Origin: Paludibacter sp.
Lineage (GTDB): Bacteria > Bacteroidota > Bacteroidia > Bacteroidales > Paludibacteraceae
DNA: 64,000 nt
Assembly (NCBI GenBank): GCA_028710895.1
Contig: JAQTTH010000002.1
Span: 385,605-449,604 of the forward strand
Direction: 5' to 3'
This document shows positions 36,339 through 60,307 of this stretch, piece by piece. The notes below the pieces were generated by a model, which saw nothing but the letters and a program-made list of their open reading frames with translations, was not told the DNA's origin and did no database searches. A program made the position numbers and the translations under genes. The first letter of the stretch is position 1. Each line of letters begins with the position of its first letter.

Positions 36339-37034
36339 TCACTCATGCAATATTTTCCGATAAATACAGCTGGCATTTGTGCATATTTCGCAGCCATATT
36401 TATGGTGTCGGAGATGTTGTCCAATGCCGATAATGCCACTGACCGATTTGCGGGGAGTCATCAGGCAGGAGTCGCTTAGTTGAATGCCGGTCGGGTTTTC
36501 ACCAATTAATTCAAACAACGAAGTTTGGTCGAACAACGGCCAGTTGCAATAGCCGGGACTGTAGCGGTTGGATATCTTCAACTGTTGAGTGTAAAGTTCA
36601 TCTTTCAGGCTTTTCTGGATTTTATCCATTGCATTTTCAACGGTCAACGAACCAATGGCATCCTGAATATAAGCCTCCATAATGTCGCCCTGCTCGTTCA
36701 GTGCATTGGTCATGCGGGTAAAGTCTTCGCCGGCTGTACACAGAAAAAGTGCCACCTGAGTAGCTTCTTTGATATATCCGCAAACCTGCCGACCCAAATT
36801 CAACTCGGTATTATCAATGCGCAGTAATCCTGTTTTTATACTCAGTTCGTCAACGTCTTTAATTACATATCCACCCGTGATACCGGCATCGAAATTCAAC
36901 TCGTCCAGTATATCCCGAATAAAAACGATAGCCGGATGCTCTTCTTCCAAATCGGTGGATTGGATAAAGTCCAGAATTTCGTCGAAAGTAGGAGCTACTT
37001 CGGCAAACGTGAAATGAAAGGATTGAAAACTCAT
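36339..37034 (-). CDS. Stand-alone MetH-activation-like (corrinoid reactivation) protein
   Basis: A 231-residue cytoplasmic protein resembling the AdoMet-binding activation domain of cobalamin-dependent methionine synthase without the rest of MetH. The diagnostic stretch is SNRYSPGYCNWP (156-167), then GIQLSDSCLMTPRKSVSG (183-200), matching the R-x-S-P-G-Y and P-x-x-S-V-S-G motifs that bind AdoMet. Unlike MetH it ends in a cysteine cluster, C215-x2-C218-x4-C223, which could bind a metal or iron-sulfur centre. In MetH this domain reductively re-methylates oxidised cobalamin, so the same job for the nearby corrinoid protein is a strong inference. It is the last gene of the operon, 63 bp after the first UroD-fold gene, with a palindromic repeat between them. 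Confidence 0.82.
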   Translation of the reverse strand: MSFQSFHFTFAEVAPTFDEILDFIQSTDLEEEHPAIVFIRDILDELNFDAGITGGYVIKDVDELSIKTGLLRIDNTELNLGRQVCGYIKEATQVALFLCTAGEDFTRMTNALNEQGDIMEAYIQDAIGSLTVENAMDKIQKSLKDELYTQQLKISNRYSPGYCNWPLFDQTSLFELIGENPTGIQLSDSCLMTPRKSVSGIIGIGQHLRHHKYGCEICTNASCIYRKILHE

Positions 37035-37050
37035 TAATTATCAATTATAC

Positions 37051-37087
37051 AATTTCCAATTCTCAATTAGAAAGAGAATTGGAAATT
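37051..37087. repeat. 13-bp inverted repeat in the operon junction
   Basis: AATTTCCAATTCT (37051-37063) and AGAATTGGAAATT (37075-37087) are exact inverse complements with an 11-nt loop. GGAAATT also recurs at 37081, 37088 and into the end of the upstream coding region, as in a small degenerate interspersed repeat. It could form a transcript hairpin that lowers expression of the last gene. Confidence 0.7.
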
Positions 37088-37097
37088 GGAAATTAGT

Positions 37098-38087
37098 TCA
37101 TTGGAAATTTTCTACAGTTTCCAGAAACGCATGTATATTAGCTTCGGGCACATGTGGTGGCAAATCGCAACCGCTTGAAATCACAAAGTTTTTGTGTTTT
37201 CCCACTTTAGCGAGTAAAGCTTTTGTCTCAATTTTCACGGAACTTACACTTCCTTGTTTGAAAACACCCACCGGATTCAGATTGCCCAACACCAGAATGT
37301 CTGAGGGACATTCGTTCAATACCCCTTCCATGTCGATGGCGTTTCCAAAATGTAAAGCTTTTGCTCCGCTGGCTACCATAGCTTGTGTGCAATGTCCGGT
37401 ATTGCCGCAATTGTGCAAAATTACAGTAAACGTATCATCCTGCACTGCCTCTACTATTTGTTTCACAAAATCGGTAGAATAAATCAGGCAATCGTCGTTC
37501 GACAATAATCCTGCTGCCGGTTCTGCAATAACAACGCCTTGCGTACCTGTTGCTTTCAGCGCTTTGCAGTAATTCACCAGGAACTCGGTACATTTTCCCA
37601 ACAGTTGAAGAATAGCATCCGGTTCAATGTAAATGGCCACCATAATTTCCGACATATCAAACAGTCGACCCGCTAATGAAAACGGACCGATACAACCCGA
37701 AAAAAGTGGTTTGTCTATTCTTGCCTCTGCTGCCAGTTTATTGGCCAACAAATATTGTGGAATACGACCCGCTTCCAACGTAGGAACTTCCAATGCAGCA
37801 ATCGATTCAGCATCGCTCAACAATCTGCCTGTTAGCGAAGGAATTTCGTCGTCAGGTAAATTCACCGCAGCACCAAAAGCTTCAGCTTCAACGGTCAAAT
37901 CCATAATGGATGAACAAGCCACTGTATTATAGTTTTCCGACAGATATTTGATGGCTTCAAAATGCACCTGTCCATCCGTCACAGCATCTTTCACTGTTTT
38001 GCCCAACGCTTCAATGCCCGGATGGGTCATAATGGGAAAAGCAAGAGTTTTCTCGCTTTCAAGAATCTGATCTATAAATTGTTTCAT
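37098..38087 (-). CDS. UroD-fold corrinoid methyltransferase, MtaA/MtbA type
   Basis: A 329-residue cytoplasmic protein of the uroporphyrinogen-decarboxylase fold. It is a methyltransferase rather than a heme enzyme: the zinc-ligand set of MtaA/MtbA is intact, with H225-x-C227 in ILHNCGNTGH and C307 in SSGCDLPPH, at nearly the family's spacing. Such proteins bind a thiol acceptor through zinc, or transfer methyl groups between substrate and a corrinoid protein. Its start overlaps the corrinoid-protein stop by four bases, so the two are translationally coupled and are probably partners. By analogy it would pass the methyl group from the corrinoid onward, perhaps to tetrahydrofolate, but direction and acceptor are not determined by sequence. 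Confidence 0.85.
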   Translation of the reverse strand: MKQFIDQILESEKTLAFPIMTHPGIEALGKTVKDAVTDGQVHFEAIKYLSENYNTVACSSIMDLTVEAEAFGAAVNLPDDEIPSLTGRLLSDAESIAALEVPTLEAGRIPQYLLANKLAAEARIDKPLFSGCIGPFSLAGRLFDMSEIMVAIYIEPDAILQLLGKCTEFLVNYCKALKATGTQGVVIAEPAAGLLSNDDCLIYSTDFVKQIVEAVQDDTFTVILHNCGNTGHCTQAMVASGAKALHFGNAIDMEGVLNECPSDILVLGNLNPVGVFKQGSVSSVKIETKALLAKVGKHKNFVISSGCDLPPHVPEANIHAFLETVENFQ

Positions 38088-38755
38088 GCCGAAATTTTAT
38101 CTAACCACACAATTCCTTCCTGCGGATTCTTTCCGTAACCATCGGCACCAATGGTAGCCGCAAAATCAGCTGAAAGTGGAGCACCACCAACGATTACCTT
38201 TGTTGACGGCGAAGCTGCTTTGATAGCATCAATTACCGGTTTCATATTTACCATGGTGGTAGTCAACAAGGCTGAAATACCCACAACAGCAGTTGGGTGT
38301 TGCTGAACAGCTTCAAGGAATTTTTCTGTTTTCACGTCAATGCCCAGGTCAATCACTTCCCAGCCGGCACCTTCTACCATCATGCCAAAAAGGTTTTTAC
38401 CAATGTCGTGCAAATCACCGAAAACAGTTCCGAGAATAAAAACGCCTTTGCGTTGTACGGAACCGTTAGCAAAAAATGGTTTCAGATGCACCATAGATGC
38501 ACCCATAGCCTTTGCCGAAAGCAACATCTGCGGAACAAATATTTTATTTTCCGTAAACTTCTGCCCAACTTTATTCATGGCAGTAATCAGCGCGTCATTC
38601 AAAATCTCAGTTGGCGTAACACCCGATTCCAATGCTTCTTTTGTAATTTCGTCTGCACCCGGCTGTCCTTTCATTTGAGGCGGATAAGGCGATGCCAAAT
38701 TAATTTTTCCGAATTCTACACACTCGGATAGTTTTTCCAATAATTCTGAATTCAT
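38084..38755 (-). CDS. Methyltransferase corrinoid protein (MtaC/MttC-like)
   Basis: A 223-residue cytoplasmic cobalamin-binding protein. Residues about 1-95 form the helical cap domain (LITAMNKVGQKFTENKIFVP, QMLLSAKAM). Residues about 103-220 form the Rossmann-like B12 domain with the canonical D114-L-H116-D-I-G119 motif, whose histidine is the lower cobalt ligand, plus GISALLTTTM and VIVGGAPLS. Size and layout match the methyl-carrier subunits MtaC, MtbC and MttC. It should shuttle a methyl group between two UroD-fold transferases encoded in the same operon. It overlaps the next gene by ATGA and lies 32 bp after the RhaT gene. Confidence 0.94.
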   Translation of the reverse strand: MNSELLEKLSECVEFGKINLASPYPPQMKGQPGADEITKEALESGVTPTEILNDALITAMNKVGQKFTENKIFVPQMLLSAKAMGASMVHLKPFFANGSVQRKGVFILGTVFGDLHDIGKNLFGMMVEGAGWEVIDLGIDVKTEKFLEAVQQHPTAVVGISALLTTTMVNMKPVIDAIKAASPSTKVIVGGAPLSADFAATIGADGYGKNPQEGIVWLDKISA

Positions 38756-38787
38756 ATTTATATTGTTTTTTATCTTGGTTCTAAAAT

Positions 38788-39843
38788 CTATTTCATTATT
38801 TGCTCTCCATACCAGCTTCCGTACGATATAATGACGGATGAAGTGAGTAAAAGTACTAATGCAAAAATGAGTATATAGTATGTTCTTTTAGATACCTGTT
38901 TCCATTCTTTCATCAGCAGACCAACGCCGTAGCTAAAGAAAATCAACATGGACATGTGCAATACCCAACTGATAAACTGGAAATTTCCCATGCGCACATG
39001 ACCTAAGCCGTAAAAGAAGAACTGTCCGCACCACATTGTTCCTGCCAATGCCGACCACATGGTGTTTTTGGCGCGTTGTCCAACAGAAATACCGCTCGAA
39101 GCTGTGAATTCTTTCAACGATTTATCTTTAATTCCGGCAACGATAAACCAAATCAGGTTTACCAAAAAACAACCGGCTGTGGAAACAATCAGTTTGGCAT
39201 TTCCTTCAAATTCTCCCGCGCCGTGAAGTGCTGCCATATCGGCAATGGGTTTTCCGGTTTCCAACGAGATATTGAAAACTGCAGATAATAATCCTCCGAT
39301 AATGGCCAGGATTAAACCTGTTGTCATATTGAAATGAGCCGCATTTTTCAGTTCGCCCAGGTCTTTTTCTTTCCTGAAACCTGCCAATCCGATAAAGCAT
39401 ATCCCGAAAATGGCTATCACCATTCCAACCAAAACAATGCTGCTTCCCGGACGCATGAAATAATGCATTACCTCACCGTGCAACAACAAGGGTGTCATGG
39501 TTCCCAGAATGGCCGAAAGTCCGATGCTGATGGAATAAGTCAATGAATAACCAATGTGTTTAATGGCAAACCCAAACGACATACCACCAAATCCGTACAC
39601 CGCACCGAGCCAGAATGCTCCCCAAAATGCAGAAGCCGGAGCTGTCTTCAAAATGAAGAAAAAATCGGGAACTGTCAGATAACCAACCACCAGTGGCATA
39701 ATAAGCCATGCAAAAGCAGACTGCACCAACCAAAATGTTCCCCAAGACCATTGCTTTGTTTTTTGGCTTGGTAAATAACAGGAAGAAGCCGAGGCGCCAC
39801 CTACTGCATGAAAGAATGTTCCGAGAATTGGATTTGAATTCAT
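38788..39843 (-). CDS. rhaT: RhaT-family L-rhamnose/H+ symporter
   Basis: A 351-residue inner-membrane permease with about ten hydrophobic helices. The N-terminus (ILGTFFHAVGGASASSCYLP) and WGTFWLVQSAFAWLIMP, plus GFGGMSFGFAIKHIGYSLTY, are characteristic of RhaT. In enterobacteria the protein imports L-rhamnose with a proton. Here it sits 36 bp from a rhamnose mutarotase gene, which supports a rhamnose or rhamnose-like substrate, but none of the rhamnose isomerase, kinase or aldolase genes is in the window. A methylated deoxy-sugar is a plausible alternative cargo. Confidence 0.9.
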   Translation of the reverse strand: MNSNPILGTFFHAVGGASASSCYLPSQKTKQWSWGTFWLVQSAFAWLIMPLVVGYLTVPDFFFILKTAPASAFWGAFWLGAVYGFGGMSFGFAIKHIGYSLTYSISIGLSAILGTMTPLLLHGEVMHYFMRPGSSIVLVGMVIAIFGICFIGLAGFRKEKDLGELKNAAHFNMTTGLILAIIGGLLSAVFNISLETGKPIADMAALHGAGEFEGNAKLIVSTAGCFLVNLIWFIVAGIKDKSLKEFTASSGISVGQRAKNTMWSALAGTMWCGQFFFYGLGHVRMGNFQFISWVLHMSMLIFFSYGVGLLMKEWKQVSKRTYYILIFALVLLLTSSVIISYGSWYGEQIMK

Positions 39844-39879
39844 AATGTTATTTACAATTCGTTCATTTACAATTTACCA

Positions 39880-40203
39880 TTAATCAATATGAAATATCTC
39901 CTCCATGTCAGCCCAAAATTCGCCAACATTACGTGTTTCAATGGGTTGCATAAGTGGTTTTACCACATCCCACCAACGTTGTGTTTCTGCGTCGGCAGCC
40001 ATGCGTGCCATATCGCTTTCAAAATCATCGCCGACATATTCAAAGTAAGCAAATAAGACTAAATCCTTTTTAAAAATGGAATAGTTCCGAATATTGCAAG
40101 CCGTTATCATTGCCAACACTCCCGGCCAAACGGCTGCGTGTTGTTTCACGTACTCGTCTGCACATTCGGGTCTGAGATGAATTATTTGTCCGAAACGTTT
40201 CAT
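39880..40203 (-). CDS. rhaM: L-rhamnose mutarotase
   Basis: A 107-residue cytoplasmic enzyme of the dimeric alpha/beta-barrel fold that interconverts L-rhamnose anomers. The active-site set of E. coli RhaM is kept at the same positions: Y18 and H22 in EYVKQHAAVWPG, with the tryptophan pair W76-W77 in QRWWDVVKPLM. Length is normal. It lies between the RhaT permease and a UroD-fold gene, so incoming sugar could be anomerised before a downstream methyltransferase or catabolic step. The 41-bp gap upstream contains a perfect 28-bp palindrome. Confidence 0.93.
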   Translation of the reverse strand: MKRFGQIIHLRPECADEYVKQHAAVWPGVLAMITACNIRNYSIFKKDLVLFAYFEYVGDDFESDMARMAADAETQRWWDVVKPLMQPIETRNVGEFWADMEEIFHID

Positions 40204-40217
40204 GTTTTTTTTATTGG

Positions 40218-40245
40218 GTATAGACGCACGGCCGTGCGTCTATAC
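40218..40245. repeat. Perfect 28-bp palindrome
   Basis: A fully self-complementary sequence with half-site GTATAGACGCACGG. It overlaps the last codon of the upstream UroD-fold gene by one base and lies 15 bp before rhaM. GC-rich palindromes of this GACGCACG-CGTGCGTC type occur as interspersed repeats in other Bacteroidetes as far as I recall. It would form a very stable hairpin in the operon transcript. Confidence 0.85.
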
Positions 40246-41282
40246 TAGTTTATAGCATTAAACATTGCCTCAATATTAGCCGGTGGAATATCGGGTAAAA
40301 TAGCTTCGTGACTCGGTGAAATAATTAATCCGGTAGGGAACAGTTGTTTGAGTTCCTTTACTTTGGCTGTAACTTGTTCCGGAGTACCATTCACCAACAA
40401 ATGTTGTGCATCCACACCACCACAGAACGATGCTTTTCCTGTAAATCCGGTTTTCAAAGTCGGAGCATCCATGTCCTGCGCCAAGGCCTGAATGGGGTGT
40501 ATAGAATCGACACCTAAGTCAATCAAGTCCTGAATGATTGGATAAATAGATCCGCAGGAGTGGTGAATTACTTTTAGTCCGTAGCTTTTGGCCTGATCAA
40601 TCAGCTTTTTTGTTCCGGGGAAAACGTAAGTGCGCAATGAATCCGGATCAACCATCAAACCACACTGACTGCCAAAGTCGTTACCAATAAGCACTGCGTC
40701 CAGATAACCTTTAGTAGCTTCGTAAAAAATCTCATTCGCTTTCAGGTAAAAATCAGTAATCCGGTCAATCACTGCCTGAAACATTTCGGGGTTCATTAGC
40801 ATTACCATCAATGCTTTTTCCATGCCAAAGGCAGCACAAGCATCCTGAAAATGCGCACTCCACATCACACCCATACGGATGTAATCCTTGTTGGCGGCTT
40901 TTACCAATCGACGCGACTCTTCCACATCGAGATACAATGCCGGATCGGGCCATGGGAACGAATCCACGAGAACCGGATCATCTATATCTTCAAAAAAACC
41001 GGGTGCGGTCAATGTCCGTTCATCGGGTTTGTCGTCGTGCGCCATTTTTGCAAATTTGAACGCACAGGCAATATGGTTTGATGGAGGAAAGTTGTACGGA
41101 ACTTCAATCGGATAAATATCGTCGTCGAGTTTGATTTTCAACTCGTCAACTGAATTCACCTGAAAATACCGAAGCAATTCAGTGACAGCCGACGGCACCG
41201 GCAAACCCAACCACGAAGCCGGACGATCAACCGGTTGGTTGGCAATTGTGGCAAAAAAACGTTCTTTATGAGTCATATTCAT
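40245..41282 (-). CDS. UroD-fold methyltransferase-like protein with H-x-C / SPSH site
   Basis: A 345-residue cytoplasmic protein of the uroporphyrinogen-decarboxylase superfamily (N-terminus MTHKERFFATIANQPVDRP). It keeps the first part of the zinc site, H241-S-C243 in VIHHSCGSIYP, but the C-terminal cysteine of MtaA/MtbA is replaced by ISPSHEAILPDIPP with H325, so the metal set may be His-Cys-His or catalysis may differ. This makes it a good candidate for the substrate-specific methyltransferase that loads the corrinoid protein. A role in heme synthesis is unlikely given the motifs and context. It lies between the sodium symporter and the rhamnose mutarotase. The substrate is inferred, not known. 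Confidence 0.8.
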   Translation of the reverse strand: MNMTHKERFFATIANQPVDRPASWLGLPVPSAVTELLRYFQVNSVDELKIKLDDDIYPIEVPYNFPPSNHIACAFKFAKMAHDDKPDERTLTAPGFFEDIDDPVLVDSFPWPDPALYLDVEESRRLVKAANKDYIRMGVMWSAHFQDACAAFGMEKALMVMLMNPEMFQAVIDRITDFYLKANEIFYEATKGYLDAVLIGNDFGSQCGLMVDPDSLRTYVFPGTKKLIDQAKSYGLKVIHHSCGSIYPIIQDLIDLGVDSIHPIQALAQDMDAPTLKTGFTGKASFCGGVDAQHLLVNGTPEQVTAKVKELKQLFPTGLIISPSHEAILPDIPPANIEAMFNAIN

Positions 41283-41314
41283 TTACTATTTATTCATTTA
41301 CCATTTACTATTTT

Positions 41315-41336
41315 CCCCTCTCATCAAGGAGAGGGG
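41315..41336. repeat. GC-rich hairpin repeat in the operon junction
   Basis: CCCCTCTC (41315-41322) pairs with GAGAGGGG (41329-41336) around ATCAAG and continues into GTTAGGGGTGAGG. This type of repeat is, to my knowledge, widespread between genes in Bacteroidetes. It separates the symporter gene from the second UroD-fold gene, in the 67-bp gap. Confidence 0.7.
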
Positions 41337-41349
41337 TTAGGGGTGAGGT

Positions 41350-42912
41350 CTAATTGAAGAAAAGATATAACCCCACCATCACAATAATCAAAACAATCCA
41401 CGAAGCCCAAACGGTTTTGGAAGTTGAGGGAAGTTTTTCCAATCCAAGTGTATTTTCAGAAACAGATTTGGTATCGAGTTTTGAAATAACAACTGTTGCA
41501 ATAGCCAGAATGATAAATAAATAGAACGAAATCATCATAAAGTGTGGCCAGAAATGATATTGCTCAACCGGGAAAACCCACCAGTACAGCACCGCAATAG
41601 CAAGACAAAAAGCCGTTCCGGCAGTAAGAATGAGATTGACAGCACGCGGAGTGGTTTTTTTCCAGAATACAGCAAAAAGAAATACCACCGACATTGACGG
41701 TGCCAGAAATCCGAGTACCGACTGAAAAATATTAAAAAGATTCAAACCTTTGATGCTGTCGATAGCCAACGCCACAATCACCGAAATAATAGCGCTGAAC
41801 ACTGTCACCCAACGTCCTATTTTCACAATTTCCTGATTCGTCGCATTGGGTTTATTCTTTTTCAGATAAATATCCATGGTGTAAACGGTACTCACGGAGT
41901 TAAGTGATGAACCAATATTTCCAAGCAAAGCAGCCAATAGTACCACCACAATCAGTCCTTTCATACCATCCGGGAAAAGATTGGTTACCAACACCAGATA
42001 GGCCTCACTTGAATCTTTCAGATGCGGAAAAAGTACAAAACAAATGATGCCCGGCAGAATAAACAAAGGCACATCCAGAATTTTCAACCAACCGATAAAG
42101 CTGGCACCCAATTGCCCTTGCTTCAGGCTCTTTGCACCCAAAACCGATTGCACCATCGACTGCTCCGTACACCAAAACCACACACCCATAATCGGATAGC
42201 CCAGTATAATAGGCAGCCACGGAAAATCAGGGTCGGAGTTCGGTTGGAAAAGTTTCCAGTAATGAACCGGCGTAGCATGGTAAAGTCCGGTTAAACCGCC
42301 GACTTTCGAAAGTCCGATTAAAGTTAGCGTCAATGAAACCACAATCAACAAAATCATTTGAAAAACACTGGTGTAAGCAATGGCTTTCAGTCCGCCGGCA
42401 GCCGTCAGAATGGAAGCCAGCACCACCATGATAATCACGGACTCCCACATAGGAATACCCAAAATTTGTTTTACCAGAATGCCACCGGCAAATAAACCCA
42501 GCGACAGCCATGAAATTAGAATGGTAATCAATGTGTACCAGGCAAGCAAATAGCGGGTAGACTGTCCAAAGCGTTTGCCCATATATTCGGGCAAAGTAGA
42601 CGCCTTAGCACCCAAATAGCGTGGGGCAAAAACAAATGCCAGCATCATGATAAACAGGAAAGCATACCATGCAAAATTCCCGGAAACGATTCCCGAACTA
42701 TAACCGGCGCTTGCCGAAGCCAGCAACATGGATGGACCAACATTCGTTCCCCACATGGTAAGTCCGATAGCAAACCAACCCAGACTTTTGTTGGCCAAAA
42801 AAAGGTTGTCGTTTTTTTTCTTGGCCGTACTTGCCCAAATAGCGATTCCGAAAAGTATAACGATATATCCGACAATCACGGAAATATCCAATGAATTAAG
42901 TGCGATTTTCAT
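41350..42912 (-). CDS. Sodium/solute symporter (SSS family)
   Basis: A 520-residue inner-membrane permease with about 14 hydrophobic helices, beginning ISVIVGYIVILFGIAIWAST. SSS landmarks include FLANKSLGWFAIGLTMWGTN, GYPIMGVWFWCTEQSMVQ and ALLGNIGSSLNSVSTVYTMD. The TEQSMVQ-like region is typical of the SGLT sugar branch, so the cargo is probably a monosaccharide or uronic acid. Together with RhaT it gives the operon two different sugar-type importers. It is flanked by UroD-fold genes on both sides, with 67- and 169-bp gaps. The exact substrate is not predictable. Confidence 0.92.
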   Translation of the reverse strand: MKIALNSLDISVIVGYIVILFGIAIWASTAKKKNDNLFLANKSLGWFAIGLTMWGTNVGPSMLLASASAGYSSGIVSGNFAWYAFLFIMMLAFVFAPRYLGAKASTLPEYMGKRFGQSTRYLLAWYTLITILISWLSLGLFAGGILVKQILGIPMWESVIIMVVLASILTAAGGLKAIAYTSVFQMILLIVVSLTLTLIGLSKVGGLTGLYHATPVHYWKLFQPNSDPDFPWLPIILGYPIMGVWFWCTEQSMVQSVLGAKSLKQGQLGASFIGWLKILDVPLFILPGIICFVLFPHLKDSSEAYLVLVTNLFPDGMKGLIVVVLLAALLGNIGSSLNSVSTVYTMDIYLKKNKPNATNQEIVKIGRWVTVFSAIISVIVALAIDSIKGLNLFNIFQSVLGFLAPSMSVVFLFAVFWKKTTPRAVNLILTAGTAFCLAIAVLYWWVFPVEQYHFWPHFMMISFYLFIILAIATVVISKLDTKSVSENTLGLEKLPSTSKTVWASWIVLIIVMVGLYLFFN

Positions 42913-43081
42913 GAAGTACCTTACACCCTAACCTCTCTCCCTGAAGAAAAGGAATTATGGGTTGATTTAAAGTTAGTATTATTTAAAAAAATTAGATTTT
43001 CAATTTATATCGCCGAAGGTTAATAACGGCGTATCCAAATATCATGCGAAGCATAAATATCGCGACCAACGGGAGCAAATA

Positions 43082-44137
43082 TCAACGATATCGTTCCACG
43101 ATTCGGATGGCTTGCTCAATCTCTTTTTCAGATTTGAAATTGACATTGATATGCAATCCCTGATTACCTACATTGTCAAGCAATGGTTCCAGTTCGTCCA
43201 ACGTTACCCAATTCGCCATAATGGATTTTCCACCGGCCAGGATTTTCTTGTACAAATCGTACCACTGCGGACTTCCACCCTGTGGCTGACCGTAACCCGG
43301 CGTCCATTGAATGGCATTCAGTTTTTCCATTTCCAGAATGGCATCCAGATGACGAATAGCATCTACCCCATCGAGGTGATAAAGCGTATAATCAATTTTC
43401 TCGGTTTGTTCGCGGAGGAATGGCAGACAGAAAGTACGGTAGTCGTCTTCCGAAATCATAATGGATAAATCACATTGCAATTTGGACACTTTGCCTGGCG
43501 CCCAAAGCGAGAAATAACAAAAGGCCATTTCGCCGTCAACATTTATAATGTCGTAAATGCGGTTGAACACGTCGAAGTACACTTCGTTCACCTTTTTCAT
43601 CATTTCCAGTGTTCCGTCAGGATCCATAATCAAATCCATCAGAATATTATCGGAACCTTTCAGACTCGCCAATACGTCGAGACCTTCCACCAAATCGGGG
43701 CAACCAACCATGTATTTTCCGTTGGCCTTGGCTTTGCAGGCTTTCAGTAAATCTTCATGAAGTTTCCAGCCTTTTTCGTCGAAAATAATCTGTCCGTCGA
43801 AGTTTGGTTTTTGGTGAATCCAAATCGTATCTTCACGTCCTTCGAGTTCCGAACCCAGAATAGCTGCCAGCGAACCCGGACCAAGTTGAGTGTTTGCCAC
43901 CGGTAAAATATCAGCCAGGTATGAATTACGCGACATAGAATAATGTAAGAATTCTGATCGCCACTGAGCATCGAACCACAACTGATTTAAATCTTTGGGG
44001 GACGATGGAGGTGAAACCAATTCATAGGGTAAACCCTCTTTTTCAAGATGTTCCCACATGGTCAGTACTATTCCTTTACCATTCCACCAGTCGGTGTAAT
44101 GCTTTTTCGTTTCAATAAAACTAGATTTCCAGGTCAT
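43082..44137 (-). CDS. Divergent UroD-superfamily protein
   Basis: A 351-residue cytoplasmic protein of the uroporphyrinogen-decarboxylase/methionine-synthase barrel group. The ATG at 44137 is preferred over the one at 44164, because the extra residues would be read from an interspersed repeat. The region equivalent to the H-x-C zinc motif reads Y-H254-L-D256-G, so the zinc cysteine is replaced by aspartate; no C-terminal S-G-C or SPSH motif is seen, only GLHINVNFKS. Landmarks include LTMWEHLEKEGLPYELVSPP and CYFSLWAPGKVSKLQCDLS. It may bind a carboxylated or sugar ligand directly instead of a thiol through zinc. It lies 79 bp after the GH31 gene. Function is not established; methyl transfer is inferred from the operon. 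Confidence 0.72.
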   Translation of the reverse strand: MTWKSSFIETKKHYTDWWNGKGIVLTMWEHLEKEGLPYELVSPPSSPKDLNQLWFDAQWRSEFLHYSMSRNSYLADILPVANTQLGPGSLAAILGSELEGREDTIWIHQKPNFDGQIIFDEKGWKLHEDLLKACKAKANGKYMVGCPDLVEGLDVLASLKGSDNILMDLIMDPDGTLEMMKKVNEVYFDVFNRIYDIINVDGEMAFCYFSLWAPGKVSKLQCDLSIMISEDDYRTFCLPFLREQTEKIDYTLYHLDGVDAIRHLDAILEMEKLNAIQWTPGYGQPQGGSPQWYDLYKKILAGGKSIMANWVTLDELEPLLDNVGNQGLHINVNFKSEKEIEQAIRIVERYR

Positions 44138-44150
44138 TTTGTTTGTTTTT

Positions 44151-44209
44151 AACCACATAGACACATAGTTATCATAGAATTATTTTGTGTTCTATATGCC
44201 TATGTGGTT
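44151..44209. repeat. Long imperfect inverted repeat (AACCACATAG type)
   Basis: An 18-bp arm starting AACCACATAG (44151-44168) pairs with CTATGTGGTT and its upstream bases (44192-44209) at 16 of 18 positions, enclosing about 23 nt. It fills most of the 79-bp gap between the GH31 gene and the UroD-superfamily gene. It would form a strong hairpin in the transcript. Confidence 0.75.
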
Positions 44210-44216
44210 CAATATT

Positions 44217-46427
44217 TTAATATTTCATTTCAATCACTTTTCCAAAATCCATTTCGTCCGTGCAGTTTACATCTTTCGGGTACATTGGGATTTCAGCTCC
44301 CTGTTTCACGAAAACCGGCATTTCTTCCAATGGAACTTCCACGTTTTTCAACCAACGTTCGCCTTCAAAAACCTCGCGACTAAAGAAATGCACCCACGTT
44401 CCTTCTGGCAAATAAATATCGCGTTTGTTTTCCGAATTCATTACCGGAGCCACCAACATATTTTCGCCAAAATAGTATTGGTCGTCAATTTGGCGGCAGG
44501 TTTTGTCGTCAGGGTGATGCAAAATCAAGGCACGCAACACCGGCATTCCGGTTTTTGTGGTGATTTCGCTTTGTTGTAAAATATATGGAATCAGTTGGTA
44601 GCGCAATTTTAACCATTTGCGAATAATCGGAGCAATGTTTGGGTAATGCCACGGCTCCCGCTTGTGCGAACCATGATAACGCAGATGTGACGAGAAAACG
44701 CCAAATTGCGTCCAACGTACATAAATATCTTCGGGCAAGACGGAGTTCATAAAGTTTGGCACGCCATGGAAACCGGGCACATCGTGGCTCCAGAATCCAA
44801 ATCCCGACAAGCCAAGCTGTAAACCGCCTTTGAGCGAGCCTGCCAATCCGTCCCACGAACAAGCCGAATCACCACCCCAATGCAACGGATAGCGCTGACA
44901 ACCTGCCCAGCCGGCACGTGCCCAGATAATGCCGTCGCCAGTCACTTCTTTGGTCACTTCGTAAGCTGCTTTTTGGTAGAGTAATGGGTATAAATTGTGT
45001 AGTTTTTCAGGACTCATGTTTCGATATTCCGCATCGAGGTGAATGTCTTCTCCAAAATCAGTTTTAATACAAACCACTCCCATTTCCAATAATTTGCGGA
45101 GTAAATCTTTGTACCACTCGGTGGCTTTGTCGTAAGTCAGGTCAATAGTTCCGGCAAAATCCTGTACGCTAAAGTTGGACGAACCTGAAATCAGTCGTTC
45201 GCTTTTGCTGATATATTCTTTTTCATCCGCTTCTTTATACTGAATGGCATTGTACGAAATGTAGGGTAATTGCCACAAGCTTACGCGATAGCCTTTATTC
45301 TTGAGGTCCTGAATAAATTCGGGTGGATTGGGAAATCGTTCGTCGTTGAATTTCCACTCGCACAACCAGTCGGTTTCAAACCAACCTGTATCGAGGTGAA
45401 TCACATCGCACGGAAAATCTTCGGTACGCATACGGTCGCAAATTTCATTCACTTCGTCGGCCGAGAAATAGGTCATACGGCTCATCCATGTTCCAAAACT
45501 CCAAAGCGGTGGCATGGTTGGGAAGCCCGTAAGTTGGCGGTAGCCAAACAGGATTTCTTCGGGTGAATCACCGCCAATCAGAAAGAAATCGACCACCGGT
45601 TCTTCCACTAACACCTGCGCCGAACGGGTCGAATGGTCGGCCAGCGAGAATTTTGCAAAGGAGGTGGTATGCAGGAACAGTCCGTAATTTTCTGACGAAA
45701 GGTAAAATGGTATGTTTTTGTAGGCACGGCGGTTGTTCACGCCTTGTCCATCCTGATTGCGTAACTGAAAGGTTTTTCCCGACAAATCCATTTTTGTGAA
45801 ACGCTCACCGGTGCCGTAATAGCATTCGTCCGCTTTGGCTTGCAGGGAGAAAGTTGCGCGGTGTGGTTCGTCGTTTCGTTCCACATAGGCCAATGCAAAC
45901 GCATCGTGACGAGTTGGCGAAAACATATCGTAAGCCGAGAGTGCCACTTCTTTTTTGCCGTCAGAGAAAAAGCTCAGATGAATGGTTTCAACCGGACCAG
46001 GAACCAAATCACTCCACCAATCGGTTTGAGGTTCTTGGAAACTAATGACAGCTTTTTTGTTTCCAGCAAGGTCATCGATTGTCCACTCCAATTCATTTTT
46101 TTCGAAAGTCAACGCAGTTGGTTGCAGGCGTGTATCCATTTCCAGCATTTCGGAATTTTCCATCACGCTTCCGGTCAAAGCCAGAGAGACGCGGAGAATT
46201 TTATCACCCAGTGCTTTTATTCGTAGCTGATATTCTTTCTTCGTAGCGGCTGTATCAGGCGTAATTTCGTTGGAATTGTTTTGTTTCTGAAACGGTATTG
46301 TGATAAAAATGTCACCGTTTATCTCCTCAATAGTAGTTGGCGAGCAAGCCCGCCAAAGTCTGTCGCCTTCGTTCAACTGTGGACTAAAATCTAAAAAGTC
46401 AAGAAGCTGATAATTTGTTTGTTGCAT
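44217..46427 (-). CDS. GH31 alpha-xylosidase-like glycosidase
   Basis: A 736-residue enzyme without a signal peptide, so probably cytoplasmic. The ATG at 46427 is preferred over 46442, because the five extra codons come from a CCCC-AAA-GGGG repeat. The clan GH-D type nucleophile is D457 in CIKTDFGEDIHLD and the acid/base is D549 in FGFWSHDVPGFHG, patterns close to YicI-type alpha-xylosidases; FPTMPPLWSFGTWMSRMTY is also typical. It probably trims alpha-xylose or alpha-glucose from imported oligosaccharides. Its presence in a methyltransferase operon suggests that the methylated residue arrives as part of a small glycoside, possibly 2-O-methyl-xylose-bearing, which is speculative. Confidence 0.9.
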   Translation of the reverse strand: MQQTNYQLLDFLDFSPQLNEGDRLWRACSPTTIEEINGDIFITIPFQKQNNSNEITPDTAATKKEYQLRIKALGDKILRVSLALTGSVMENSEMLEMDTRLQPTALTFEKNELEWTIDDLAGNKKAVISFQEPQTDWWSDLVPGPVETIHLSFFSDGKKEVALSAYDMFSPTRHDAFALAYVERNDEPHRATFSLQAKADECYYGTGERFTKMDLSGKTFQLRNQDGQGVNNRRAYKNIPFYLSSENYGLFLHTTSFAKFSLADHSTRSAQVLVEEPVVDFFLIGGDSPEEILFGYRQLTGFPTMPPLWSFGTWMSRMTYFSADEVNEICDRMRTEDFPCDVIHLDTGWFETDWLCEWKFNDERFPNPPEFIQDLKNKGYRVSLWQLPYISYNAIQYKEADEKEYISKSERLISGSSNFSVQDFAGTIDLTYDKATEWYKDLLRKLLEMGVVCIKTDFGEDIHLDAEYRNMSPEKLHNLYPLLYQKAAYEVTKEVTGDGIIWARAGWAGCQRYPLHWGGDSACSWDGLAGSLKGGLQLGLSGFGFWSHDVPGFHGVPNFMNSVLPEDIYVRWTQFGVFSSHLRYHGSHKREPWHYPNIAPIIRKWLKLRYQLIPYILQQSEITTKTGMPVLRALILHHPDDKTCRQIDDQYYFGENMLVAPVMNSENKRDIYLPEGTWVHFFSREVFEGERWLKNVEVPLEEMPVFVKQGAEIPMYPKDVNCTDEMDFGKVIEMKY

Positions 46428-46436
46428 AGAGTCCAA

Positions 46437-46507
46437 CCCCAAAGGGGCTTTAAATAAGTTTTTATTTTTCTGTTCAACTTTTCTAAGTTCTAAACTTTTG
46501 AAAAGTT
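46437..46507. repeat. Two small hairpins between the GH31 and mutarotase-like genes
   Basis: CCCC-AAA-GGGG (46437-46447) lies ten bases upstream of the GH31 start. AACTTTT-G-AAAAGTT (46493-46507) overlaps the stop of the upstream gene. They are another example of short palindromes at junctions of this operon. Confidence 0.55.
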
Positions 46508-47174
46508 AGTTTTTAATTGAACTAAAGGCCACCCACGTTGTACTTTTTGGTGCATCTTCTATTCCTTCCTGATATTTAACCATTATTTTGTTCCACTCAT
46601 CAACCCGTGGATTATTATCTGTGGTTTTGGGATTCAGTTCATCCAACGTTTTGCCTTTCGGAATACTGATAACCAACATCAATTGCCGACCATTGCGAAA
46701 AACAAGTAATTGCTGGAAATCAGCCTTGCAAAAGCCTTTCGAGACTTCCGGCCATTTTTCAAACTGTGTGCGGTGATATTCCAGATACTGATGTTGCAAA
46801 GTGGTATCAGCAACCAAATTGGCGGTCATAATAATGTTTGTCCATTCATTGGCTGGTTTTGAACCGGTCATTTTTTCGCGATTAAAATCATAAAAAGGCG
46901 TTTCATAAACATTGACCTTTAGTTTTGGAAATTTCTTCTCAATTTTTTCAGCTAACTCGCTGGCATTCTGCTTTCTGTAAATTACCCAATGATTTTGCCA
47001 TTGATAAACCGATGATGTTTCAATTTTATTTTCGCGACAAAATTGTGTCAGAGTAGCGGTTGAAAACCGGTAATCCATATCTACCAACTCTATGATGGAT
47101 GGAGTTTTTACTTCCTTGGTAACGCATGACGTAAGGGTAAGTATGGTAATGAATATAAAGAATTTATGAAGCAT
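46506..47174 (-). CDS. Lipoprotein with L-rhamnose mutarotase-like domain
   Basis: A 222-residue predicted lipoprotein: a short hydrophobic leader ends in LTLTS-C17. Two ferredoxin-like halves are visible. The second (about 112-215) resembles RhaM, with Y130-x3-H134 and W141-P-E-V in QYLEYHRTQFEKWPEV, then LLVFRNGRQLMLVISIPKG and VDEWNKIMVKYQEG; the first half (about 28-100) looks like a degenerate copy. Outside the cytoplasm it could anomerise or simply bind a rhamnose-type sugar before transport. It is the first gene of the minus-strand operon, so the promoter should lie in the 544-bp interval upstream. Enzyme activity is uncertain. Confidence 0.72.
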   Translation of the reverse strand: MLHKFFIFITILTLTSCVTKEVKTPSIIELVDMDYRFSTATLTQFCRENKIETSSVYQWQNHWVIYRKQNASELAEKIEKKFPKLKVNVYETPFYDFNREKMTGSKPANEWTNIIMTANLVADTTLQHQYLEYHRTQFEKWPEVSKGFCKADFQQLLVFRNGRQLMLVISIPKGKTLDELNPKTTDNNPRVDEWNKIMVKYQEGIEDAPKSTTWVAFSSIKN

Positions 47175-47718: not shown

Positions 47719-49212
47719 ATGAAAAAAATCTCATTAAAAAAATGGAGTTTTGCGTTTGCAGTAGTGGTCTGTCTGCTATTAGCATCCTGCATTGACGGGT
47801 ATCATGATGATTGGACATTCTCGTCCGGTGTGACAAATAAAACATTAGAATCACCAGCTGATTCGACTATTCAAATTTTAAAAAATGCCGACGGTTCTAA
47901 GTTGCTTGTTTCATGGCCGGTTGTTTCTGGAGCAAAAGGATATCAGGTTTCGGTTTTTAACGTGGATGATCCTGCACATCCAGTTCCAGTAGTAGATGAT
48001 CCCAAAAAAACGGTTCCAATAGCATACGACAGTCTATTTGTAGATGGTTGTACGTTTTCATGTGCCTATTTGAAAAATACCAAGTATAAAATTGAAATCA
48101 AAGCCTTAGGTAATCCAAAATTCAGTAATAAAGATGCGGATAGTGCAACAGTAGTGCAATTCAGCACCCTTTTGCCTGCTCATGCAATAATTCCAGATGG
48201 TACTGATTTGTATACCTATTTCCAAAGTAATGCCATACCGGATTCAACCAAAGAGGTAGCTTATGAATTAATGCCCTATCCGGCAACTTATACCTTATCG
48301 GGGCCACTTGATTTCCAAAAACACTGGATAGTTTTGCGGGGTGATAAAATTCATCCACCTACGATTACTTATACTGCCGCCGGACGATTGATGACAACCA
48401 GCGGTATTACGATTGAATATCTTAATTTTGATTGTTCGGCTATTACATCAACCACCAGCGATGGAGCTTTTTTCTCATTTAGCAGTACGCCGGATGAGTC
48501 GTTAAAGGGGATAAACTCCTTCTATCTAGTAAAGTCACCAAAATCGGTATTGATTTCTTCTTGCAACTTCATTAAACCACTGACGACCAGATTTATATAT
48601 GATAACTCCAAGAAATATTGTATTGAAAATCTTACCGTTGATAATTGTATCATTCCATTGGGTATTATACCCACAGATGGCATAATATTTTTTAAAGCTG
48701 GATATGCTAACAATCTCTATTTCACGAATAATACACTGTATGGAACAGCTTCAACTGCCGGATATTTCTTGAAATACGAAAATAGTGCCCGTCCCGATCG
48801 TGCTGGTTTTGTTTCTGCCTCTATAAATCTGAATAACAATACGTTTTATAATGTTGTAAACACAGGACAGATGGCTAATTATCCCGCAATGAGTAGTGTT
48901 ACAGTTGCACTGACGCTTTCAAGAAATATCTTTGTGAACTGTGGCTCAGGTCAGGTGGTTCGTCGACTTTGTGTAAGTTCTACAAACATGGTAAAGACAT
49001 TTAATGATAATTTATACCTGTTCAATGGAGATGCAGCTACTACCAATACGAATGAATTTGTACCTACTTATGGTGACAAGAGTGGTACGGGCTATAGCAT
49101 AGATCCATTATTCAAAGACCCTGCAAATGGTGATTTTACAATTGGTGCAGGTGCAACGGATGTATTTACTCATGCAAGTGGTGATCCACGTTGGTTACAG
49201 TTAACACAATAA
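47719..49212 (+). CDS. Beta-helix surface lipoprotein (DUF5123/DUF4957-like)
   Basis: A 497-residue lipoprotein with lipobox LLAS-C24. Residues about 45-155 look like a fibronectin-III-type domain (SKLLVSWPVVSGAKGYQVSV). From about residue 170 onward there is a right-handed parallel beta-helix pattern (GITIEYLNFDCSAI, VDNCIIPLGII, NNLYFTNNTLYG, INLNNNTFYNVVN), matching the DUF5123/DUF4957 proteins that precede SusC/SusD in pectin loci. No lyase catalytic residues are evident, so a pectin-binding role at the cell surface is inferred. It is the first gene of the pectin locus, 33 bp before SusC. Confidence 0.82.
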   Translation: MKKISLKKWSFAFAVVVCLLLASCIDGYHDDWTFSSGVTNKTLESPADSTIQILKNADGSKLLVSWPVVSGAKGYQVSVFNVDDPAHPVPVVDDPKKTVPIAYDSLFVDGCTFSCAYLKNTKYKIEIKALGNPKFSNKDADSATVVQFSTLLPAHAIIPDGTDLYTYFQSNAIPDSTKEVAYELMPYPATYTLSGPLDFQKHWIVLRGDKIHPPTITYTAAGRLMTTSGITIEYLNFDCSAITSTTSDGAFFSFSSTPDESLKGINSFYLVKSPKSVLISSCNFIKPLTTRFIYDNSKKYCIENLTVDNCIIPLGIIPTDGIIFFKAGYANNLYFTNNTLYGTASTAGYFLKYENSARPDRAGFVSASINLNNNTFYNVVNTGQMANYPAMSSVTVALTLSRNIFVNCGSGQVVRRLCVSSTNMVKTFNDNLYLFNGDAATTNTNEFVPTYGDKSGTGYSIDPLFKDPANGDFTIGAGATDVFTHASGDPRWLQLTQ

Positions 49213-49245
49213 TAAAAGTCTACAACAATTTAAAATTTACAATAT

Positions 49246-52200
49246 ATGAAACAAATTCAATATATATTTATCTTTTTGCTGATGCTGGGAGTTTCCATTC
49301 CGGTAGCAGCTCAGCAGAAAAGAACAATTAATGGAGTTGTACTTGATGAGAAAAACGAACCCATTATTGGGGCAAGTGTAACTGTACCCGGTACAAGATT
49401 AGGAAGTATCACTAATATGTACGGAAAATTTATTTTAAGCAATGTAGAAGCTGATCAAAAAATCATCCAGATTTCATACATTGGTTACAAAACTCAGAAA
49501 GTGGATATTACCAACAAGACCTCTCTAACTATCGCGATGGCAGAAACCAACAACGAGCTAAATGAGGTTGTAGCAGTGGGTTATGCCACTCAAAAGAAAG
49601 CACACTTAACGGGTGCTATTGCAACGGTAGATCCAAAGGAACTTGCTGATTTAAACACTACAGACCTTGCCAGTTCATTACGAGGCAAGGTAACCGGATT
49701 GAGTATTGCAGGTGGTAACCGTCGCCCGGGTGAAAGTGGATCAATTACTATCCGCAAATCAGCTGTAATGTCTTCATTGTCAAATATATCGGCTTTTGTT
49801 CCAAATAATTCGCCTATGTATATTATTGATGATATTCAATCTGATGAATCACAATTCAATAATCTGGATCCTACCATGATAGAAAGCATGTCGGTTCTGA
49901 AAGATGCGGCAGCGGCCGTTTACGGTTCCAATTCGGCCTACGGGGTAATTATAGTGAAAACTAAAAGAGGAAAAATAGGTGCACCCAAAGTTTCGTATAA
50001 TGGTCAGTTCGGACTTACCGACGAGATACAACGAGCCAAATTGCTTGATGCATACAATTACGGCAAATTATGGAATGCAGTATATGCAGCTGGTGCAACA
50101 GGTGAATTCCAGGAAACTGATAATAAGAGAAACATGTTTCAGGCAAATGAACTGGAATACATGAAAAAAGTGAACTATGACTTACTGGATCAGCAATGGC
50201 ACACCGGATTAACTCAGAAACACAGTGTGAATATTACTGGTGGAGGTGAGAATGCCAACTATTTTGCAGGCATCTCGTATGTTAAGCAAGGAGCCAATAT
50301 TGGTAATATCGATTATGACAGATGGAATTATCGCGCCGGAGTAGACGCCAAAATTAGCAATGCTATCAAAGTTTCGTTTCAGGCTTCGGGTGATTTTAGT
50401 AAGAAAAACTCCAGCTTCAGCAAAGTAACTGGCTCTAATGGTGGCGAAACAGATTATAACTATTTGTTGACACACCCCCGTTATATTCCCGAGTATGTTA
50501 ATGGTTTGCCAATTGCTACTTATGGTATGACTAACAGCGAAATAAATTCTATTCAGAACTACAATTACAATACTATTCAGAATATGGGAAATAACAGTCA
50601 GAGTGTTTCTCAAACGATGAATTTGAATGCGAACATTGAATATGATTTTAGCTGGCTGGAAGCCTTAAAGGGACTTAAATTTAAATTAACATATGGGAAA
50701 AATATAAGCACTTCTAAAACAAATCAATTTGCTTCAAAATATTACATTTATAAATTCGGGAAACGACCAGGTATTGATAATTATGAATTTGGTGGACATA
50801 TCTACGACGAGACACAAATGGATATGTCCAGTAGCAATGTTACCCGCATGGAGATAACAAACGGAGATATCTTAAGCCGTAGCATGGCTCGTGGAGACAA
50901 TTATCAGTTAAACTTCACAACGACCTATGGTCGTAAATTTGGATTACACGATGTAAGTGGTTTGTTTACCATTGAAAGAAGTGAAACAGAATCGGAAGAT
51001 CTTTCCGGATCAGTATCAGGACTTACAGAGTATGCCAACGGACAGTCTGTTGTATCTGCAATAGATCCTAACAATAGCGGCTCCACGGTTTTTGGACGTT
51101 CTGAATCCGGACGTTTATCCTATGCAGGAAGGGCAAACTATGCATATGCCGACAAATATCTGTTGGAATTGCTGTTCAGAGTTGATGCTTCAACAAAATT
51201 TGCACCAGAAAACTATTGGGGATTCTTTCCTTCCCTTTCTACCGGTTGGGTACTATCTGAGGAAAATTGGTTCAAACAAAATGTCAAAGGTATAGATTTC
51301 TTGAAAATTCGTGGATCATTTGGTTTGCTGGGTAGAGACAACCTGAAACCCTGGATGTGGACACAATTGTACAACAGTAATCCGGATAAAGGTCCGGTAT
51401 TTGGTACAAACCCGGGTACAAAAACATCCAGTCACCTAGCCCTCCAGGACGATGGTATCAACCGTTTTGCCCATTGGGATAAAAACTATCAGGCAAATAT
51501 CGGTATCGACCTGAATGCTTTCGATAACCGCTTCTCAACAGGATTAGACGGTTATTATTTCTGGGGACGAGAAATTTTTGCCACCAAGCAGGGAACAGCA
51601 GATTATCCGGCTACTGTGGGAGTAAAAGCGGCACCTGAGAATTATGGGCAGATTGATCGCTATGGCATAGAATTATCGTTGGGTTGGAAAGATAAAATAG
51701 GTGATTTCAAATACAATGTAAAAGTAAGCACTGAATATGCTGACGATAAAATTCTGGTCGATGCCTGGCCGGCACAAATAGCCTTCGACGATGTGCATCC
51801 GGGTCAGCGGAATGATGTTGGTGTTTGGGGATATGAATGTATCGGTATGTTCCGCAGTTATCAGGATATTGAAGAATATTTTAATAAATATCATATTACA
51901 AGCTATATGGATAAGGCCAAGTCTGATGTACGTCCAGGCATGTTAATATATAATAATATCAGAGGTTCACAAAAAGCTGATGGTTCTTATTACGGACCTA
52001 ACGATCCGAATGATCCGAATGCAGGAGTGGTAGACAAAAACGACCGTATCCTGATATCTACCAAGAGTAGCAATCCGTTTGGTTTCAATTTGAGTTTAGG
52101 TGGCGAATGGAAAGGCATTTCTTTTAATGCCCGTTTCAGTGCCGGCTGGGGCAGTTATACCTATATCCCACAATATGCAAGAGGTATTACCAGTTTAATT

Positions 52201-52614: not shown

Positions 52615-52625
52615 ATTTGAGAAAA

Positions 52626-54776: not shown

Positions 54777-54818
54777 AGGTTTAAAAGAAATTTAAATACC
54801 AATTAATGCACATAATAT

Positions 54819-54848
54819 AACGGAGATTACCCTGGGTTAATCTCCGTT
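54819..54848 (+). terminator. Terminator-like hairpin after SusD
   Basis: AACGGAGATTA (54819-54829) and TAATCTCCGTT (54838-54848) form a perfect 11-bp stem around CCCTGGGT. The following GTTTGTATATTT is only moderately T-rich, so termination may be partial and let some transcript continue into the methylesterase gene. Its second arm overlaps the alternative start at 54847 of that gene. Confidence 0.7.
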
Positions 54849-54891
54849 GTTTGTATATTTGCCTGCTATTAAATCAGGAAAAATTCAGTTT

Positions 54892-60259: not shown

Positions 60260-60307
60260 TTTACCATTTGATCATTTACGATTTACAATTAAATAAACTT
60301 GAGTTAT

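Follow-up and report, generated by a model that had tools for sequence, protein, structure and literature searches.

Organization of the operon and its neighbourhood

The ten genes considered here lie on the minus strand, at positions 36339-47174, of a 64,000-nucleotide stretch (hereafter the window) of contig JAQTTH010000002.1 from a Paludibacter sp. genome of 4.9 Mb in 41 contigs, and they combine components of corrinoid-dependent methyl transfer with enzymes and transporters for sugars. An earlier note on this DNA had described them as a single operon, and every gene was recovered at the place and on the strand described there. The spacing is operon-like, with intergenic gaps of 32-169 bases and one 4-base overlap, between the genes for the corrinoid protein and the protein here termed MtaA-like. 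Pfam assigns nine of the ten proteins, the exception being UroC (UroB, UroC and MtaA-like are labels coined in this analysis).

In order of transcription, the operon begins with a lipoprotein, lipoM (46506..47174), whose C-terminal domain is a RhaM-type mutarotase (PF05336, E 5.5e-10, residues 124-216). It is followed by an enzyme with glycoside hydrolase family 31 (GH31) Pfam domains (44217..46442), whose best NCBIfam match is the alpha-xylosidase PRK10658, at 501.6 bits and thus under the cut-off of 606, and whose nearest PDB entry, 5f7c, is named an alpha-glucosidase. Next come UroC (43082..44164), a predicted UroD-fold methyltransferase I; a sodium/solute symporter (SSS; 41350..42912, PF00474); UroB (40245..41282), a UroD-family methyltransferase I (PF01208); a RhaM-family mutarotase (39880..40203, PF05336, E 1.3e-30); and a RhaT-family sugar/proton symporter (38788..39843, PF06379). 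The last three genes encode the free corrinoid protein that would serve as methyl carrier (38084..38755, PF02310 and PF02607), the MtaA-like methyltransferase II (37098..38087, PF01208) and a protein resembling the activation domain of MetH (36339..37034, PF02965, E 2.7e-9). The nearest NCBIfam model to the corrinoid protein is MtgC, at 189 bits against a cut-off of 370. For UroC and GH31 the true starts are likely to be internal ATG codons, near 44137 and 46427, respectively.

The names RhaT and RhaM might suggest a plain rhamnose operon. However, the absence of a rhamnose isomerase, kinase or aldolase, which the earlier note had remarked upon, held among the 30 annotated proteins of the window (the reading frames at 49246-52614, 58565-60259, 60299-60985 and 61488-63689 are unannotated), and UroB is linked in two genomes to GH139, a 2-O-methyl-fucosidase; the plain rhamnose reading was rejected. 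Scans of the window for regulatory elements returned no Rfam match, a single match to the Bacteroidales promoter pattern against a mean of 3.22 expected, and sigma-70 and terminator signals near chance. Genes of polysaccharide utilization loci lie on both sides of the operon (3946-31857 and 47719-56352): one flank has SusC/SusD-type genes with GH2, GH36, GH95 and GH92, and the other SusD and a pectinesterase (54847-56352).

Fold and metal site of the three methyltransferases

Sequence searches placed UroC in no family of Pfam or NCBIfam (E 0.001) and gave no PDB match even at E 5, and a profile comparison with the MtaA-like family likewise gave no match. An AlphaFold model built from a 24-sequence alignment (pLDDT 83.7, pTM 0.85) nevertheless returned, as its top 14 Foldseek matches, exclusively uroporphyrinogen decarboxylases. 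The model of UroB (9 sequences, pLDDT 74.7) resembles both MtaA-type and UroD structures. The claim that the operon encodes three UroD-fold proteins is thereby borne out, in the case of UroC through the predicted structure and in the other two through PF01208. Together with the free corrinoid protein, which carries the DxHxxG motif in the form DLHDIG, these proteins supply two traits of corrinoid O-demethylases, namely the carrier and a methyltransferase I of the UroD superfamily.

The residues at the presumptive metal site differ among the three. UroC has an H263-x-D265 pair that is invariant in 24 of 24 sequences and, on our reading, no cysteine at the third position. In UroB all 9 of 9 sequences share H241-x-C243 and H325, the last of which aligns with C307 of the MtaA-like protein; that protein keeps a complete His-Cys-Cys site (H225, C227, C307) in all 14 sequences checked of the 32 available. 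In the UroD superfamily, S-methyltransferases are reported to bind zinc through His-Cys-Cys, whereas O-methyltransferases have a carboxylate or a non-coordinating residue in place of one or both cysteines (PMC10418091). Judged by this rule, the His-Asp site marks UroC clearly as a predicted O-side methyltransferase, and UroB is probably one too, whereas the MtaA-like protein looks like the thiol side of the system, i.e., a predicted methylcorrinoid:thiol methyltransferase. UroB is a borderline case, in that its third ligand is a histidine, which can bind metal and is not named in the rule, and this tells against its assignment.

Two putative substrate cassettes with a shared corrinoid core

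Conservation of the gene set was examined in the best 80 of 144 corrinoid-protein loci, each taken with as much as 10 kb of flank, though several are cut at contig edges; their open reading frames were compared with the ten window proteins, requiring at least 55% identity for the MtaA-like protein and at least 60% for UroB. The seven named loci with the closest corrinoid proteins belong to four Paludibacter metagenome-assembled genomes (MAGs) and three Bacteroidetes or Bacteroidales MAGs. The MtaA-like gene is present in 32 of the 80 loci and is accompanied in all 32 by the activation-like gene, while lipoM precedes GH31 in 10 of the 80. UroC occurs in 23 loci; all 23 also have the MtaA-like gene, 22 have GH31 and 21 the SSS symporter, and the lone UroC locus without GH31 (L049; L, G and C numbers denote loci, genomes and contigs) is cut at the contig start. 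In these 23 loci the blocks recur at about 45-93% identity per protein, and the gene set thus holds together far beyond chance. UroB is found in five of the 80 loci, with RhaM in all five and RhaT in four.

Loci of Dysgonomonas, Proteiniphilum, Fermentimonas, Alistipes and Prevotella have GH31-UroC-SSS and the core without UroB, and four Paludibacter loci (L048, L049, L050 and L051) have both sets. This distribution supports a view of GH31-UroC-SSS and UroB-RhaM-RhaT as two putative substrate cassettes sharing one corrinoid core: the loci are modular, and UroC and UroB therefore each tend to be accompanied by a transporter while the core is common. The architecture given in the earlier note needs correcting in this respect: the substrate side divides into two methyltransferases, each with a transporter of its own, and the third UroD-fold protein would belong to the acceptor side.

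Loci selected through UroC and UroB themselves extend this picture. L164 and L165 have an unbroken GH31-UroC-SSS; L166 has a PF01408 oxidoreductase gene between UroC and SSS; and in L167 the contig begins at UroC, followed by SSS, GH138 and a third UroD-like family, UroD43. In L168 (9241-12198; G111:C39) a UroC-like domain (52%) and a corrinoid domain (46%) are encoded in a single 985-residue frame ahead of SSS, a natural fusion resembling CmuA that ties UroC to the corrinoid carrier. Among the seven UroB-selected loci beyond the genome under study, RhaT or RhaM lies beside UroB in L156, L157, L159, L160 and L161. Remoter versions were observed in Parabacteroides gordonii-type loci (L063, L064 and L082), with RhaT at 33-35% and UroB at 31-37%, and L169 (72-5012) has a distant triad of GH31 (27%), UroC (30%) and RhaT (26%), in which a RhaT-type transporter replaces SSS.

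The corrinoid protein by itself has relatives in loci with other predicted donors. The earlier note had regarded conserved neighbours with a true MtaB as a sign of another donor, and such a neighbour was found in ten of the 80 loci (MtaB, PF12176, and PF02574, discussed below, were each assigned from one representative), none of which has UroC or the MtaA-like gene. The corrinoid proteins of these ten are 57-71% identical to that of the window, overlapping the range in UroC loci (64-89%), and the carrier alone is therefore no marker of the donor, which is told by the cassettes. It could be held on these grounds, and from the pectinesterase in the window, that the operon serves methanol or other one-carbon corrinoid metabolism and that its sugar genes are unrelated; but with no MtaB in the operon or in any of the 32 MtaA-like loci, we rejected a methanol system and regard this broader reading as the least probable of those considered. 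The MtaB-adjacent loci (L065, L067, L069, L077, L086, L089, L107, L111, L115 and L123) are of methanol type and include Tannerella-type MAGs and Candidatus Symbiothrix. A further group, L095-L124 (e.g., L103:3289-7690), with many Prolixibacteraceae, combines an AraC regulator, the corrinoid protein, a 539-residue UroD-thioredoxin fusion, PF02574 and a CobW-like protein, at times near a GntP permease, and would constitute a second, putative demethylation cluster; L114, which has a GH139 gene, is of this type.

A second comparison is with the type 1 mlp gene clusters, which also have several MtaA-like UroD-type proteins and one free corrinoid protein (PMC10418091). On this outline the operon might act in methyl-sulfur or methyl-selenium metabolism, with the sugar genes as bystanders. 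The mlp clusters are, however, described as having Ram/RACE and Mlp proteins with His-Cys-Cys, several Mlps1 excepted, and the type 1 definition asks for Mlp2 and Mlp3 with His-Cys-Cys as well as Ram/RACE (PMC10418091). The operon has PF02965 in place of Ram/RACE, two of its three UroD-fold proteins lack His-Cys-Cys, and its sugar enzymes and transporters co-segregate with UroB and UroC, all of which make this reading very unlikely. No ATP-dependent Ram/RACE activase is encoded in the operon, a result that covers the operon and not the remainder of the genome.

Association with rhamnogalacturonan-II degradation

The proteins that recur near GH31-UroC-SSS point to a specific polysaccharide. They include a protein with a GH141 insertion domain, GH78-like and GH127 proteins and a 914-residue protein matching PDB entries 6hze-6hzg, BPa0997, which we take to be a GH138 enzyme. 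To go by the title of the paper on the family, GH138 enzymes reportedly target the chain A galacturonic acid of the pectin rhamnogalacturonan-II (RG-II). The protein taken as GH138 is present in eight of 198 Bacteroidales genomes. UroC, counted at 56% identity or more (of nine matching genomes, G169, G084 and G045, at 30% or less, were dropped), is present in six, all within those eight (Fisher 3.6e-10, a test that ignores relatedness, the six genomes representing six families). GH141 or GH138 lies in the fetched flank of 18 of the 23 UroC loci but in only one of the other 57 (L080, which also has GH31). In 395 genomes sampled across the phylum, UroC was found only in the genome under study at E 1e-20.

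A counterpart of the operon, in L050, lacks lipoM, is 59-91% identical to that of the window and is situated between GH138 and GH2. The Paludibacter genome under study has its own GH138 (C8:193493-196228) and a GH78-like protein, together with a GH2 that shares 77.7% identity with the one in L050. An alpha-xylosidase-like GH31 beside GH141, a fucosidase family, fits the removal of 2-O-methyl-alpha-xylose from the fucose of chain A, these roles of GH31 and GH141 being presumed. RG-II, which occurs across plants and is common in the human diet (PMC12168206, PMC12282258), contains both 2-O-methyl-xylose and 2-O-methyl-fucose, the former on side chain A (PMC12168206). We thus predict that GH31 releases 2-O-methyl-D-xylose from chain A and that the SSS symporter imports it, and consider it probable that UroC is a 2-O-methyl-D-xylose:corrinoid methyltransferase.

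The UroB cassette is connected to the second methyl sugar through GH139. On the stretch that separates the corrinoid gene from UroB-RhaT, G064 (L159) encodes a 778-residue protein matching 9hyq (E 7.8e-264) and 9hmb, its gene divergent from UroB and with a single gene intervening; both structures were deposited as GH139 (PMC12282258). In G773, GH139 ends 14 bases ahead of UroB on the same strand, with RhaM after. Across genomes, GH139 occurs in 32 of 393, namely in six of the eight whose UroB match reaches at least 62% identity (of 41 matching genomes) as opposed to 26 of the other 385 (Fisher 4.6e-6, here too with relatedness ignored). The genome under study has one GH139 (C8:169267-171417, 1038 bits to 9hyq), on the same contig, C8, as its GH138. 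GH139 inverts to give beta-methylfucose (PMC12282258), a product that would suit a mutarotase such as RhaM. RhaT is hence predicted to import 2-O-methyl-L-fucose, and UroB is a reasonably likely candidate for a 2-O-methyl-L-fucose:corrinoid methyltransferase. Three matches to PF02952, the fucose isomerase C-terminal family, are compatible with L-fucose use by this organism.

The cassettes could instead act on other methyl sugars, UroB on O-methyl-rhamnose or another O-methyl-6-deoxyhexose and UroC on, e.g., a 4-O-methyl-glucuronate-type pyranoside. RhaT and RhaM are named after rhamnose, most UroB loci have no GH139 nearby, and in L160 and L161 UroB-RhaT stands beside PF01120 alpha-L-fucosidases rather than GH139. 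On the other side are the GH139 genes adjacent to UroB in G773 and close to it in G064, the restriction of UroC to GH138 genomes, and the report of 2-O-methyl-xylose and 2-O-methyl-fucose as the rare methyl sugars of RG-II (PMC12168206). Taken together, these make other sugars an unlikely choice.

Several observations nonetheless weigh against a two-substrate system for the methyl sugars of RG-II. The window flanks contain no recognized RG-II enzyme besides GH31, the RG-II genes being on another contig. L046 and L053, with corrinoid proteins 92% and 85% identical to that of the window, retain the core, but their fetched flanks show neither cassette; the 20 kb of L168 contain no GH31; and in L158 and L162 neither RhaT nor RhaM is beside UroB. 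GH139 is near UroB in just two of the seven UroB-selected loci and in none of the five UroB loci among the 80, where the sole GH139 (L114) lacks UroB; the UroB genomes G672 and G197 have no GH139; and all six UroC genomes have it. RG-II genes co-occur as a set, and genome co-occurrence therefore cannot separate the two sugars. Further, genomes that have UroD43 may use it, rather than UroB, as the methylfucose enzyme. In G064 its gene is flanked by GH138 and another GH139; L167 has it close to GH138, and L170 groups it with GH138, GH2 and a corrinoid gene. UroD43 was found in five of 13 genomes tested, weak UroC cross-matches set aside, and is absent from the genome under study. Finally, cleavage of an alkyl methyl ether is expected to be harder than that of the aryl ethers of known O-demethylases. 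The UroD43 genes themselves (L221:11414-12490, L167:5453-6571, L170:8466-9545 and L058:19122-20198) occur in contexts with GH138, GH139, GH2 or GH127.

Methyl acceptor and corrinoid reactivation

The genome under study encodes two PF00809 proteins, MetH and a 302-residue protein of dihydropteroate-synthase size; beyond these, no PF00809-type methyl-folate:corrinoid methyltransferase was found. Among the 80 loci, PF02574 homocysteine S-methyltransferase proteins occur in 24, all of which lack the MtaA-like gene, and in none of the 32 MtaA-like loci (Fisher 2e-7, confounded by phylogeny). Twelve of the 24 also have an activation-like gene; two (L115 and L123) have MtaB as well; and 16 of the 80 loci have none of MtaA-like, PF02574 and MtaB. 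In L166, PF02574 and activation-like proteins are encoded directly ahead of GH31-UroC, and that genome also has an MtaA-like gene, which adjoins a corrinoid gene at another locus (L159). Read most simply, the mutual exclusion means that the two proteins replace one another at the same step and hence that the acceptor would be homocysteine, although the pattern may follow phylogeny, which counts against this reading.

That the methyl group is passed to tetrahydrofolate, as in acetogen O-demethylases, was the earlier note's reading of the same sugar demethylation. Some acetogens may use MtaA proteins of UroD type for folate, but the known folate-dependent methyltransferase II proteins are of the PF00809 type. 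MetH is an example of that type (PMC12478193, figure legend), and bacterial corrinoid clusters of similar kind are reported to transfer the methyl to tetrahydrofolate (PMC10418091, PMC3727330). In the present case the genome offers just MetH and the 302-residue protein, the His-Cys-Cys site of the MtaA-like protein is invariant in 14 of 14 sequences, and a PF02574 protein occurs without it in 24 of 80 loci and stands within a GH31-UroC operon in L166. With these observations folate becomes a rather unlikely acceptor, and a thiol such as homocysteine is the moderately favoured candidate on the sequence evidence; another thiol, or sulfide to yield methanethiol, may also serve. Demethylation of glycine betaine through a corrinoid protein, linked to methionine synthesis, provides a precedent (PMC12478193).

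The operonic PF02965 protein is predicted to reactivate the corrinoid by reduction. The MetH of this genome (L175:4231-6963, on C4) has 910 residues and no activation domain, and a separate 327-residue PF02965 protein, along with a short fragment, is encoded at C33 (G000:C33:204301-205137). The existence of this separate protein makes MetH reactivation a less likely role for the operonic copy, which is probably dedicated to the corrinoid protein of the operon.

Comparison with known corrinoid systems

The known UroD-type O-demethylases are described as acting on methoxylated aromatics, with one relative acting on haloalkanes (PMC13222342). The operon resembles the three-component aryl O-demethylases (OdmB/VdmB/MtvB; MtoB) and CdmBCA of that account in having a UroD-superfamily methyltransferase I and a methyltransferase II along with an activator and a free corrinoid protein. 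It differs from the aryl systems in its predicted donor, an alkyl methyl ether on a sugar; in an activator of the MetH type (PF02965) rather than an ATP-dependent activase; in a methyltransferase II of UroD type with a thiol site rather than a PF00809-type enzyme that methylates tetrahydrofolate; and in a core shared by two methyltransferases I, each with its own transporter.

The MtaA-like protein is closest, both in NCBIfam and in PDB (4ay7), to the methanogen methylcobamide:CoM methyltransferases MtaA/MtbA, which are likewise of UroD type with His-Cys-Cys. Models of this kind score 101-133 bits, under their cut-offs, the equivalogs reaching 101 and 110 bits against 400 and 600. Coenzyme M is not expected in this organism. 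The MtgBCDE system of marine bacteria also ties corrinoid demethylation to methionine synthesis, but with glycine betaine as the donor, a PF06253 methyltransferase I and the pterin-binding MtgD (PMC12478193). With the RG-II utilization system of Bacteroides thetaiotaomicron (GH138, GH139, GH141) the genome shares carbohydrate-active enzyme families and, as predicted here, the polysaccharide, to which the operon would add a route for the methylated monosaccharides after their release.

A proposed pathway for the methyl-ether sugars of RG-II

From the gene content, folds, site residues, linkage and co-occurrence described above, we infer the reactions, the two sugars and the acceptor as follows. 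GH31 of the operon, with GH139 and GH138 encoded on another contig, would free 2-O-methyl-D-xylose and 2-O-methyl-L-fucose from RG-II; SSS and RhaT would import both, and the RhaM-type mutarotases would provide the right anomer. UroC and UroB could then move the methyl group to the Co(I) of the common corrinoid protein, leaving D-xylose and L-fucose to the usual catabolic routes. The MtaA-like protein would place the methyl on a thiol, most likely homocysteine to give methionine, and the MetH-activation-like protein would re-reduce cobalt that had slipped to Co(II).

The earlier note's proposal of a cobalamin-dependent removal of methyl groups from O-methyl sugars, those of 2-O-methyl-xylose and 2-O-methyl-fucose included, is well supported by the association of UroC with GH31, GH141 and GH138 and of UroB with GH139 in two genomes. 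That the operon demethylates O-methyl sugars appears highly probable, and its likely specific form is a corrinoid O-demethylase with two substrates, both of them methyl-ether sugars of RG-II. Among the open-licence papers in the literature matches listed, there was no description of the corrinoid demethylation of sugars and no account of the use of the methylated monosaccharides of RG-II after release. More tentatively, the operon may represent the first enzymatic route for both of these sugars, in which two corrinoid methyltransferases cleave alkyl ethers on free sugars through one carrier and the methyl proceeds to homocysteine, such that pectin feeds methionine synthesis without folate.

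If correct, this would add the alkyl ethers of carbohydrates to aryl ethers, methanol and amines as substrates of corrinoid chemistry. Both predicted substrates are concrete compounds, and the prediction is therefore directly testable. Such an enzyme would also give B12 a new role in the Bacteroidales and suggest substrates for UroD-like families that are currently unannotated.

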